Positions 10,411 to 20,664 of a stretch of DNA of 33,988 nt are shown piece by piece. Every line of letters starts with the position of its first letter. Within the stretch, counting starts at the first letter, position 1. The stretch is from Legionella nautarum (lineage in GTDB: Bacteria; Pseudomonadota; Gammaproteobacteria; Legionellales; Legionellaceae). The position numbers were made by a program, and so were the translations under genes. The notes below the pieces were generated by a model that searched no databases, was not told where the DNA came from, and saw only the letters and a program-made list of their open reading frames with translations. The stretch spans positions 81,424 to 115,411 of the forward strand of contig NZ_LNYO01000023.1 of NCBI RefSeq assembly GCF_001467895.1, written 5' to 3'.

Positions 10411-12486
10411 CTATGTTAACTTGATTACCCTATCAGCCATTTTTATCGTTTCATGCCGATGAGCAATGACTATTTGAGTGATATTTATTTGTTTCAATGC
10501 ATTATTTATTTTAATCTCTGTTGCTTCATCTAAATGACTTGTCGCTTCATCAAGAAATAGCAGTTTAGGCTCTTTATATAATGCTCTGGCGAGTAAAACT
10601 CTTTGTTTCTGTCCCCCAGAAAGAGAACTTCCCATATCTCCAATCAACGTTTCATAGCCCATTGGCATTTTTAAAATATCTTCATGAATTTGAGCAATTT
10701 TCGCAACCTCATAAATCCTATCAATATCAATTTTTATATCCATAAAACTAAGATTATCAAGTATTGATCCACTTATTAATGTATCATCTTGCATTACGCA
10801 AGCGCATATACTTCGATATTTTTTTAGTCCCAGCGTTAATAATGGAATATCGTCAACAAAAACTTCCCCTGTTGATGGCAATATCAGACCTAGCATAATT
10901 TTCAATAATGTAGTCTTACCTACTCCTGAGGCACCTGTAATGGCAATTTTCTCTCCCTTTTCAATATGGAAATTGACATCTTTTAGTATCCAATTCTGAC
11001 TCTGAGCATATCTAAAGCTTAAATTCTTTACTTTTATATCCCCATTTATAGGCTTATTTATATGGTGATTATTGCCCACCTTTTCCATTGGTTGTAATAA
11101 AATATCCGCAACTCGATCTAATTGAACTGAGATCAATTTATAATCAAAAACTCTTTGAATAAATGATAAGGATTTATTAACTAAAATCTGACGATAAGCT
11201 AGAAAAGCTACCAACATTCCCACTGAAAACTGATTCCAGACAACTAATAAAGCACCCAAAGCAATGACTGCAATATGCTCTATATTAAAAACCAGTATAT
11301 TAACTAAGTTATATAAAATATTAACTTTGGAAATTTTAATATCAGCGTTCATTGCAGCTATAAAATGATTTTGCCAACTTTGAAACATCGTATTTTCTTT
11401 TGAATAAAGTTTAATGGACATAATACTTTGAACAATTTCCAAAAACTTTGAATTCACTTGAGCATGCTCAATAATTGATAATTCGGTTTGCTGTTTATGA
11501 TGCCGATAAGCCGTAATTCTTATTCCCATATAAATACTCAAAACAAATAATACGACTAAGGTTAGCTTGAAACTGTAAATAAACATGATTATCAAAGCCA
11601 GTATCATTACCATCCCATCAAGTAAGGTATTGATTGAATCAGTAGTAATTTTGCTTTGAATTTCATTTATCGAATGAAATCTCGATAAAATATCGCCTTT
11701 ATGGTGACTTACAAAATATTGATAAGGTATTTTCAACAGATGATGCATGACACCTGAAGAAAAATATTCTACCAAGCGATTTGTTAAATAAACCACGAAG
11801 TTAGATCTCATATATTCGATAAGGGTATGACAGATAATTAATATTAAAAAACCGAGAATCAATACATATAAATTATTAATATTATTCGAGCTAGTAACAC
11901 TATCCATGACAAATTGTATAAATAGAGGATTTATTAAAATAAAAATTTCAATCGCTAGAGATAGAAATAATAAAATAATCAGACTATTTTTTAATCCCTT
12001 AATATTTTTAAATAAGTCTAATAAAGCTAGCTTGTTTTGTGCTTTAATTACAAAAAATTGTTCGCCTTTTTCAACCTCAAGTACAATTCCAGTAAATGAA
12101 TTTGAAAGTTCCTTAAAAAATATTTTTCGCTCACCCATCGCCGGATCGTGAATCAATACATATTTTTTATGAACTGACTTTAATACAACAAAATGGTTCA
12201 TGTTCCAATGCAAGATTGCAGGCAGAACGACATGTTGCAACTCATCAAGCTCGACTCTGATTGCCCTTGTAGTGAAATTTAGTTTTTCGAGAAGACGAAC
12301 TAAATCTAACATTGACGAACCGTTCATTGATGTAGGTTCTATCGCCCTTAGAGAAAATAAATCAATTTTATGGCCGTGATAATTGCTAATCATTGCAACA
12401 CAAGCATGACCACATTCAGAAAACTGTTCCTGCCTAACAACAGGTAGTTTTTTTCGTCTAACCTTTATATTAGCAAATGCAGTCAT
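10411..12486 (-). CDS. C39-peptidase ABC exporter (PCAT) for a double-glycine peptide
   Basis: This 691-residue inner-membrane exporter should cleave the leader after Gly-Gly and pump the mature peptide out. The C39 peptidase domain (residues 1-135) has the catalytic Cys25 in QFSECGHAC, His98 in HWNMNHFVV and Asp114 in IHDPA, so the triad is intact. A six-helix membrane domain follows at about 155-430. The ATPase has Walker A (GASGVGKTT), signature (LSGGQKQR), Walker B (LLFLDEATS) and H-loop (IVIAHRH). The ATG overlaps the stop of the HlyD gene in an ATGA. Its obvious client is the precursor at 15797-15958, whose leader ends LGKVAGG. It is the last gene of the operon and abuts the inverted repeat. 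Confidence 0.93.
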   Translation of the reverse strand: MTAFANIKVRRKKLPVVRQEQFSECGHACVAMISNYHGHKIDLFSLRAIEPTSMNGSSMLDLVRLLEKLNFTTRAIRVELDELQHVVLPAILHWNMNHFVVLKSVHKKYVLIHDPAMGERKIFFKELSNSFTGIVLEVEKGEQFFVIKAQNKLALLDLFKNIKGLKNSLIILLFLSLAIEIFILINPLFIQFVMDSVTSSNNINNLYVLILGFLILIICHTLIEYMRSNFVVYLTNRLVEYFSSGVMHHLLKIPYQYFVSHHKGDILSRFHSINEIQSKITTDSINTLLDGMVMILALIIMFIYSFKLTLVVLFVLSIYMGIRITAYRHHKQQTELSIIEHAQVNSKFLEIVQSIMSIKLYSKENTMFQSWQNHFIAAMNADIKISKVNILYNLVNILVFNIEHIAVIALGALLVVWNQFSVGMLVAFLAYRQILVNKSLSFIQRVFDYKLISVQLDRVADILLQPMEKVGNNHHINKPINGDIKVKNLSFRYAQSQNWILKDVNFHIEKGEKIAITGASGVGKTTLLKIMLGLILPSTGEVFVDDIPLLTLGLKKYRSICACVMQDDTLISGSILDNLSFMDIKIDIDRIYEVAKIAQIHEDILKMPMGYETLIGDMGSSLSGGQKQRVLLARALYKEPKLLFLDEATSHLDEATEIKINNALKQINITQIVIAHRHETIKMADRVIKLT

Positions 12487-13490
12487 ACAATTGGGTCTCC
12501 ATAATAACTATAAATGGGATCGAGTATCCACTGCCAAATGTTCTTTTTTTCGCCAGCAATAATGGCTGTAAGAGTCATACCGTGATTTAATTTAACTTTC
12601 TTTCCATAGACCAAAACAGAGGATTTTTTAAGTGCTGCTTTTATCTTATAGTAAGGCTCACCGACTTGTATGGGTTTATCCTCTTTATCGTCGGTTAAAA
12701 TAGTCTGATTTATTTCTTTAATAACTGCTTTATAGAAACCAAAACGCTGTGGGGGATAAGCATCATACTTAAGATAAATTGTTTGTTCTGGCTTTAGAAA
12801 GCCAGCATTTCTCGAAGGAATATACAATCTAGCAATTAAATTGACTTCGGGGGGAATGACCTGCAATAAAGTTTTTGAAGACTGTATTCTTTGGCCTCGA
12901 CGGTAAAATATATTGGTAACCGTACCGTCAATTGGTGCTCTTATATGCTGGATCTGGTTTTCTTTATATTTAATCAATTGATATTCGGCTTCTTTCAATC
13001 TATTTTTAAGCTCTAATAAATCCGACTCTGAATCTTTTAAGTTAGATAATGAGATATAGTTTTTGCTATATAGATTCAATAATGCATGGTGGTGCTCGTC
13101 CTTGATTTGAAATTCACGTTTTAAATTGTTGATACGTTCCCTTAAGTTATCCTGCTGCCCTGTAGAGCTTTCGTTGCCCGGATTCGAAATGACAAATAGC
13201 AATTGTCCTTTTTGAACGAAGCTCCCCTCCTCAACAGCAACTTTATCAACTAGGCCTGGCGATTCAGACTCTACTGAAATAATTCCACCCTCGGTATCAA
13301 GATAGCCTCTTATAAAGATTTTTTCAGAAATTTGAGCAAAATAGAAAAAAATTAGCAAAACAAAAACTATTCCTAAGGCACTGTATCCAGCAATGCGAAA
13401 ATTGAAGGGAACAACGATTCTCACGGTTCCCAATCTTCTATGAATACGATTTTTAAGGACTTCTTGTCGGAAAAGCGGAGTATTTTCCAT
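12483..13490 (-). CDS. HlyD/CvaA-type periplasmic adaptor
   Basis: This 335-residue protein is the membrane-fusion partner of the C39 exporter and links it to an outer-membrane channel. It has a single membrane helix at about residues 32-52 (GYSALGIVFVLLIFFYFAQI). A lipoyl-like half follows (SPGLVDKVAVEEGSFVQKGQ), then a coiled-coil hairpin at about 105-170, the second lipoyl half (IRAPIDGTVTNIFYRRGQ), and a beta-barrel region. The tail NHGMTLTAII plus WQWILDPIY matches the end of bacteriocin-export adaptors. No TolC-like gene is in the window, so a chromosomal one is presumably used. The gene overlaps the exporter gene by 4 bases. Confidence 0.9.
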   Translation of the reverse strand: MENTPLFRQEVLKNRIHRRLGTVRIVVPFNFRIAGYSALGIVFVLLIFFYFAQISEKIFIRGYLDTEGGIISVESESPGLVDKVAVEEGSFVQKGQLLFVISNPGNESSTGQQDNLRERINNLKREFQIKDEHHHALLNLYSKNYISLSNLKDSESDLLELKNRLKEAEYQLIKYKENQIQHIRAPIDGTVTNIFYRRGQRIQSSKTLLQVIPPEVNLIARLYIPSRNAGFLKPEQTIYLKYDAYPPQRFGFYKAVIKEINQTILTDDKEDKPIQVGEPYYKIKAALKKSSVLVYGKKVKLNHGMTLTAIIAGEKKNIWQWILDPIYSYYGDPIV

Positions 13491-13550
13491 AATTATTAAA
13501 ACTCTAAGGATTAAGCTTTAGGTAAATATTCGGGCTAGAGTCCACTCTAC

Positions 13551-20149: not shown

Positions 20150-20166
20150 TATCTTACTCCTTTTAT

Positions 20167-20664
20167 TTAACGACCATTTAATAAATCTTCTAAATCAAAA
20201 AGATGATTACACCGTTTCGCAGTAATAAAATTTCTTTGAAAGGGATTTTCTTGAAAAACTGCTAGTTCTTTTACTTCTTCCAAAAAAGTTTCATTAAAAG
20301 AACCATCCACTCTCAAGCTCCCAGTCCCAATGAAACTATCAATCGTACTTTGTTGATTATGATTTCTTACTATATTTAATGCCGCGATAGATAAGGAAAG
20401 ATCGGCACTTCTGGCATCTTGAACATTATAATTTTCTTTCAATGATCTTAAGTTATACTCATAAGTCTCCAAGCAACTCCAATCTCTCTTTAATGAAGAC
20501 ATTATTTTTATAACTCTGACAAAATTTCTTTCTAATGATTTTGCTATTGAACCAGACGAATTAACTCTAAAGTGCGAAGTTGGTTGTGCATCTAACATTA
20601 AATAAAAAACCAAGCCTTGGCGATTGATATCAAATGCTGGTATTAAAAAATCGAGGTTTATCAT
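20167..20664 (-). CDS. Lon/ChlI-fold-like small protein, copy A
   Basis: This 165-residue cytoplasmic protein is the first gene of the operon. The pattern ARSADLSLSIAALNIV followed by IGTGSLRVDG, and then AKRCNHLFDLEDLLNG, resembles the Lon-protease-like domain at the N-terminus of ComM/ChlI (G-P-S-A-x-L, then G-E-L-x-L-D-G, then the final S-L-x-E-L). The Ser of that pattern is kept, but no Lys sits where Lon has its catalytic partner. Protease activity is therefore doubtful. The resemblance is by eye and needs a profile search. The stop lies 17 bases before the beta-solenoid gene. A paralogue broken by one stop codon lies at 32110-32568. Confidence 0.65.
   Translation of the reverse strand: MINLDFLIPAFDINRQGLVFYLMLDAQPTSHFRVNSSGSIAKSLERNFVRVIKIMSSLKRDWSCLETYEYNLRSLKENYNVQDARSADLSLSIAALNIVRNHNQQSTIDSFIGTGSLRVDGSFNETFLEEVKELAVFQENPFQRNFITAKRCNHLFDLEDLLNGR

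Follow-up and report, generated by a model that had tools for sequence, protein, structure and literature searches.

Two peptide-modification modules in one gene row of Legionella nautarum, one of them a putative new graspetide-like family

The stretch of Legionella nautarum DNA analysed here (the window: 33,988 nucleotides of contig NZ_LNYO01000023.1, in a genome of 3.65 Mb) carries a row of eleven same-strand genes, A to K, that runs from 20664 to 10411 on the minus strand, neighbouring genes being separated by -25 to 63 bases. The first-pass annotation, made from the sequence alone, had described the row as one operon for a single modified peptide with a double-glycine (GG) leader; the close packing that it reported was confirmed, as were, by family searches or alignment, the GG-leader precursor (G), the MvdD-like ligase (H), the HlyD adaptor (J) and the two ATP-binding cassette (ABC) transporters (F and K). 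We find that the row is made up of two modules. Module 1 comprises A-B-C-D-E, with or without F, and is best read as a new graspetide-like family of ribosomally synthesised and post-translationally modified peptides (RiPPs) whose cross-links, export and role we infer; module 2 comprises G-H-I-J-K and is a graspetide cluster of a known kind.

Eleven genes in two modules

Strong matches to E (at least 353 bits, 51-62% identity) were found in 12 other genomes, making 13 of 143 Legionellaceae genomes with the window's own included, and six more held weak matches of 24 bits or fewer. A-B-C-D-E lie together and in the same order in all 12, with D split in two pieces in one of them (L038; L and G numbers are our locus and genome labels) and E split over two contig ends in another (G085). 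The conservation of order and sequence in these genomes, taken with the purifying selection on module 1 genes that is shown by codon data, shows that the genes are real. F follows E in five of the 12 (L034, L035, L036, L037, where it is in two pieces, and G085). The genes of module 2 stand directly behind module 1, with F absent, in three (L031-L033), while in L037 G-H-I are found elsewhere on the contig. Within the stretches examined, one of which is only 6.5 kb long (L036) and one of which is in two contig pieces (G085), none of the 12 has all eleven genes together and eight have no G. H was present in 70 of 140 Legionellaceae genomes, and 63 of those 70 have no strong E. Among the matches listed, H is absent from six of the 13 genomes that carry module 1, two of them (G035, G085) being recorded without an H match and four (G029, G030, G031, G033) being absent from the 70 positives and assumed to fall within the 140-genome draw. 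Module 1 occurs in genomes without a listed H, and H in genomes without strong E; the modules are independent.

A single pathway for one GG peptide, in which E and D would be second-step enzymes acting on G, fits the shared strand and the narrow gaps, and the modules are joined in L031-L033 and L119 as well as in the window. Nevertheless, we consider it very improbable and rejected it on the phyletic pattern just described; the gene conserved beside E and D is C, and not G. The expectation that all eleven genes would be conserved together, and that the GG precursor would be present wherever the rest of the operon is kept, was therefore not borne out. The proposal that ligase, GG precursor and C39 exporter make a graspetide cluster stands for module 2 but does not extend to all eleven genes, and module 1 is apparently undescribed. 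In genome G132 (L119), which has no E, A-B-C, half of D and the end of F are followed by three copies of G, then H and I, and this suggests that the window's gene order was once present there, before a deletion.

Module 2 is a graspetide cluster that is common in the Legionellaceae and has a HEAT-repeat companion, as the spread of H and the linkage of the HEAT gene to it indicate: 68 of 72 HEAT-gene matches lie within 1 kb of an H match, and 60 of the 61 genomes with the HEAT gene also have H. H matches the NCBIfam models MvdD, MvdC and GRASP_SAV_5884 over most of its length (E-value about 1e-54, below the equivalog cut-offs) and the PDB entry 5ig9 (E-value 2.6e-52). In nine aligned G precursors R7, L9, G27 and G28 are invariant, and the core is Thr- and Asp-rich by eye; G matched no family in Pfam or NCBIfam searches. 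The frame of I is open from an ATG at 14732, overlapping H, and its likely start is the TTG at 14603 behind GGAGA, which would give an N-terminus that resembles a signal peptide by eye. The HEAT and beta-solenoid assignments made for I and B agree with matches to HEAT_2 (E-value 6e-5) and to bactofilin (E-value 3.5e-4; 21.2 bits against a cut-off of 27.9), both of which fall below the Pfam cut-off. J belongs to the HlyD family, F to the ABC family and K to the C39/ABC proteins, its best NCBIfam match being the NHLM exporter, below the cut-off of that model. Three tandem GG precursors per cluster were seen in L031 (9224-9772) and L119 (5415-5967); their cores differ in L031, and one ligase may make several peptides there.

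The row is presumed to be one transcript. Promoter-like sites in the window are not in excess (47, against 53.5 in shuffles) and terminator-like sites number 10, against 5.7 in shuffles (standard deviation 2.7); both are uninformative on one transcript versus two. Divergent from A is a gene of 250 amino acids (20814-21566, plus strand) that looks repressor-like by eye and has no Pfam match. Flanking the operon are three genes for sensor kinases and a pair of genes that gave a single weak match to a response regulator (30273-31605, 27446-29698, 6341-8293 and 2380-5097, all on the minus strand). In L032 and L033 the pair likewise lies upstream of module 1, oriented the opposite way, and it may be a regulator of module 1; relatives of the flanking sensor kinases were found in L032 only.

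Table 1. Features of the gene row and of the second copy of module 1 in the window
Feature	Positions	Strand	Length (amino acids)	Description
A	20167..20664	-	165	Module 1; small protein, possibly ChlI/Lon-like (unproven)
B	19610..20149	-	179	Module 1 core member; GTG start; signal-peptide beta-solenoid, bactofilin-like
C	19436..19597	-	53	Presumed module 1 precursor peptide; core SDGKEGGSDGKEGGKD; C-terminal YxF
D	18570..19433	-	287	Presumed catalytically dead ATP-grasp partner of E
E	17569..18594	-	341	ATP-grasp ligase; TTG start; catalytic residues kept
F	15972..17576	-	534	ABC exporter, membrane part and ATPase, without C39 domain
G	15797..15958	-	53	Module 2; double-glycine-leader graspetide precursor
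H	14618..15733	-	371	Module 2; MvdD-type graspetide synthetase
I	13551..14603	-		Module 2; HEAT-repeat protein, signal-peptide-like start; frame open from 14732
J	12483..13490	-		Module 2; HlyD-family adaptor
K	10411..12486	-		Module 2; C39-peptidase ABC exporter, NHLM-like
Second copy of A	32110..32646	+		Broken, two pieces
Second copy of B	32561..33127	+	188	Intact
C-like N-terminus (IDIFFGMYNDGQEGGS)	33137..33988	+		Continues in frame into a class-II DAHP synthase-like gene that is cut off by the window end

Peptide C and the recurrence of module 1 in a small-genome family

The precursor of module 1 is presumed to be C rather than the GG peptide. C is the conserved small gene that travels with B, D and E, and its core is frozen by selection. 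B and C are adjacent in all 26 loci that have E, and C is 53-59 residues long in the Legionellaceae (40-79 amino acids overall, as called). Across 13 orthologues the core, residues 17-32 of the window copy, has a proportion of synonymous differences (pS) of 0.932 and of non-synonymous differences (pN) of 0.033; the pN/pS ratio is 0.19 in the FFG stretch before the core, 0.64 in the tail and 0.90 in the first ten residues. Conserved donor (Ser or Lys) and acceptor (Asp or Glu) side chains are present in this core: S17, D18, K20, E21, S24, K27, E28, K31 and D32 are invariant in the 13 sequences, and residue 25 alone among the donors and acceptors varies, between Asp and Glu. C matched no family in the Pfam and NCBIfam searches.

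When 340 genomes were searched at class level with the E profile, five besides those already known gave matches with E-values up to 1e-10. Three of these belong to a family of small genomes, f130, while a quick look at the distant matches in G452 and G277 (L137, L139) revealed no such cassette. The f130 sample consists of 14 genomes, which are also all those searched from its order, of 0.7-1.4 Mb and 53-93% completeness. E is present in 13 of them, covering all 10 genera, and in each of the 13 loci B, a small peptide gene and E occur in that order; a D-like frame comes after E in 12 (not in L157, and about 500 bases further on in L156). The core of the f130 peptide is SKDGKDGKEGKDD, with variants, and its pS and pN over 10 loci are 0.958 and 0.071, values from which two loci with a shorter core (L156, L157) and one near-copy (L162) were left out. 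When the Legionellaceae and f130 profiles were aligned with hhalign, E matched E at 99.8% (E-value 3.9e-28) and B matched B at 99.9% (E-value 3.7e-34), with D borderline. The f130 stretches are 13 in number and 3.9-14 kb in length; the B profile finds a match in every one and the A profile in none. On these comparisons the core common to the two families is B-C-E, probably together with D. Directly behind the f130 cassette of L135 are two similar-looking large genes (7688-9082 and 9249-10682), the first of which has no Pfam match.

The ligase E and its presumed partner D

E resembles the graspetide synthetases and has kept residues of the catalytic type. In an alignment of 22 sequences (12 from f130 and 10 from the Legionellaceae) 20 columns are invariant, and these include K144, R180, D199, D236, E248 and N250 (L135 numbering), which we take to be ATP-grasp catalytic positions. 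The f130 E profile scores 116.7 against H, where the maximum of 60 shuffles is 22.1. Among solved structures the nearest relative of E is 7drm (E-value 4e-9, aligned over residues 194-319), which carries the database label ATP-grasp domain-containing protein and which, with 7drn to 7drp in the series 7drm-7drp, we take to be the plesiocin ligase PsnB; RimK-type ligases come next (E-value 1.6e-5). In NCBIfam an F420 ligase model (E-value 1.4e-5) stands just ahead of MvdC (2.2e-5) for the window's E.

The alternative that E is an amino-acid-adding ligase of the RimK/LysX kind, with C as a carrier or tagged protein that is not macrocyclised, draws on the ATP-grasp domain that E shares with those enzymes, on RimK as the only Pfam domain above cut-off in E, and on the place of RimK-type ligases among its solved relatives. 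Of six E proteins from f130 that were compared with NCBIfam, the one from L156 also has RimK as its best match. In the other five a ribosomal-peptide maturase leads, below cut-off, and the best-scoring solved chain is that of E's nearest relative, 7drm. Moreover, unlike the LysX systems, C lacks a matching carrier C-terminus: it ends in YxF in the Legionellaceae, is variable in f130 and has no conserved C-terminal Glu. We judge the RimK/LysX alternative unlikely and continue to favour a graspetide-like role for E.

D probably partners E as an ATP-grasp protein that has lost its activity. It matched no family in Pfam or NCBIfam; its 12 orthologues gave one match to a PIN-like model (E-value 0.0018) that looks like chance, and searches for D at the class and phylum scales, in 369 and 398 genomes, found only its own genome. 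The AlphaFold model of D (predicted local distance difference test score 81.6, predicted template modelling score 0.80) has strands at 184-189, 194-201 and 204-207, a helix at 215-232, strands at 236-244 and 247-254 and a last helix, an order that by eye appears to be that expected of an ATP-grasp C-lobe. In profile comparisons f130 D scored 32.0 against f130 E (shuffle maximum 18.5, none of 150 as high), and the pooled D and E profiles scored 20.7 against a shuffle maximum of 17.7. The D-x-R and E-x-N motifs of E are missing from D by eye, which is why we regard it as probably dead, and the overlap of the two genes by 25 bases suggests partnership. The earlier description of a second ATP-grasp ligase with a degenerate partner stands for E; D has no family and its ATP-grasp fold was not confirmed.

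Several results weigh against a reading of module 1 as a graspetide-like system with a dead ligase partner. Legionellaceae E is borderline against H, with three of 60 shuffles scoring as high, and support for grouping the E proteins of both families in the tree is weak (67/72; one row, H_L099, is wrong); the RimK match in L156 makes RimK-type chemistry possible. In the case of D, the Legionellaceae profile scores 11.3 against f130 E, a value reached by 149 of 150 shuffles, is borderline against both f130 D and H (three of 150 shuffles each), and gives no signal in a profile-profile comparison with E when the Legionellaceae alone are used. The C peptides of the two families show no significant profile match (best E-value 0.17), and it is from gene position and the repeat that we take them to be related. 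Profiles of F, J and the HEAT protein matched nothing in the 13 stretches from f130, an ABC-ATPase-like frame similar to K (E-value 4e-9) occurs in only two (L138, L154), and the B proteins of L159 and L160 show no obvious signal peptide by eye; export, which the presence of F supports at some loci, may therefore not be general. Finally, the near-universal presence of the cassette in f130 sits poorly with an optional antimicrobial.

Survival of B, the proposed pathway and its relation to known systems

Eight loci have no E, namely the second copy in the window genome and a single locus in each of seven further genomes. B is an open frame in seven of the eight (L058, L119, L120, L121, L122, L123 and L124) and broken in L125, while A is whole and C near whole only in L119; it should be noted that B was the query by which the loci were located, a bias in its favour. 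Searching with A brought in two more genomes, G133 (where the match is at a contig end) and G138, both of which hold nothing but fragments of A. Pairwise ratios of non-synonymous to synonymous substitution rates (dN/dS) for the seven B genes are 0.08-0.25 (intact pair 0.09), although some of the change on each branch may be older than the decay; dS is far from saturation only in L120 (0.30) and L122 (0.77), in both of which dN/dS is below 0.1. The A fragment of L120 has a dN/dS of 0.36, against 0.08 for the intact A pair (dS 2.0, saturated). B often outlasts the rest of module 1 under purifying selection, as would be expected of an immunity gene and also of any independently useful gene.

The second copy in the window itself (32110-33988, plus strand; L058, 3560-5093) is a decayed module 1 in which A is split and B is intact. 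Its C-like start is in frame with a gene resembling class-II 3-deoxy-D-arabino-heptulosonate 7-phosphate (DAHP) synthase (Pfam E-value 1.6e-67), and residues of unknown identity in the translation point to runs of N in the assembly. B-like beta-solenoids without an evident signal peptide were also seen apart from the cassettes, in L126 (6793-7362), L127 (7376-7936) and L128 (6276-6845), with no C-like peptide or ligase among the frames listed beside them. A, which was found only in the Legionellaceae, is probably an accessory gene; it has no signal peptide by eye, and S86 and K132 are invariant in 13 orthologues. The Lon-fold-like label given to it was not confirmed: three of 13 orthologues match ChlI weakly (best E-value 0.015), and a PDB search found no credible relative of known structure.

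With rather more confidence than doubt, we propose two RiPP modules, in the first of which E, with D, links side chains in C, F or J/K exports the product and B acts outside the cytosol. In module 2, H would close rings between side chains in the core of G, which is rich in Thr/Ser and Asp, and K would cut at GG and export the product with J, the HEAT protein I being a regular companion. In module 1, E would use ATP to activate Asp and Glu side chains in the repeat core of C and join them to nearby Lys and Ser side chains, while D, a relative without catalytic residues, may serve as a stabilising or substrate-binding partner. The product would leave through F, or through J/K where F is missing, and the secreted beta-solenoid B would meet it outside the cytosol, for self-protection or as a receptor or anchor.

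The nature of that meeting bears on a different account, in which the product of C serves at the surface, as a structural or host-directed peptide, assembling with B or upon it, and contributes to the cell surface or to host association rather than to immunity or antimicrobial activity. One would expect the f130 genomes, where E is kept so widely, to have lost a bacteriocin that they could do without, and the constant adjacency of B and C suits this account; selection on a solitary B fits it as it fits any B with its own function. The survival of B without C and E is not expected if B works only with C, and we think that this account is plausible but probably not correct. A more specific version, which we put forward tentatively, is that the ATP-grasp pair, one member active and the other dead, forms side-chain amides that staple a collagen-like Lys-Asp/Glu-Gly repeat, the product forming with the beta-helix B a conserved surface or host-association trait of host-dependent Gammaproteobacteria, and not an antimicrobial. 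Returning to the two-module proposal, the patchy, decaying pattern in the Legionellaceae, with B left behind, suggests conflict, while the near-fixed pattern in the small genomes of f130 suggests a lasting function.

If the proposal is correct, module 1 represents a new graspetide-like family in which the repeat-type core is frozen and the ligase has a dead relative as its partner, present in two separate lineages and near-fixed in the one that has small genomes. RiPPs are usually patchy and dispensable, and near-universal retention in f130 suggests a role beyond antibiosis; the solitary B genes under selection after decay would then be a natural test of who protects whom.

The structures 7drm-7drp, presumably of PsnB, offer the nearest solved comparison for E, over residues 194-319 only. 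The literature listings that were searched contained no description of a B-C-E-D cassette; the string DGKEGG returned one Alcaligenes vaccine paper and the f130 motif strings returned none. Module 2 resembles the group 8 graspetides, including Gra-7 of L. pneumophila, in its MvdD-type ligase, its GG-leader precursor with Thr/Ser and Asp and its NHLM-like exporter: both Gra-7 precursors, assigned by the authors to group 8, lost three waters when co-expressed with the ligase (PMC9576775), and group 8 is among the groups with NHLM-type transporters (PMC13097080). It differs in its HEAT companion, which is not named in the portions of PMC13097080 and PMC8939145 considered here. As for module 1, the rosaritide proteins MirB and MirC, in which a ligase needs a co-encoded partner, offer a parallel to the proposed pairing of E with D, although MirC is a PpiC-type, chaperone-domain protein (PMC13097080). 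D, by its appearance, is instead related to the ligase itself and dead. Corallotide, in the same account, is unusually large and is hydroxylated by an oxygenase, whereas C has 40-79 amino acids and no oxygenase was seen at its loci; the two are alike in their repeated motifs, and in corallotide it is Lys that is cyclised into isopeptides (PMC13097080).

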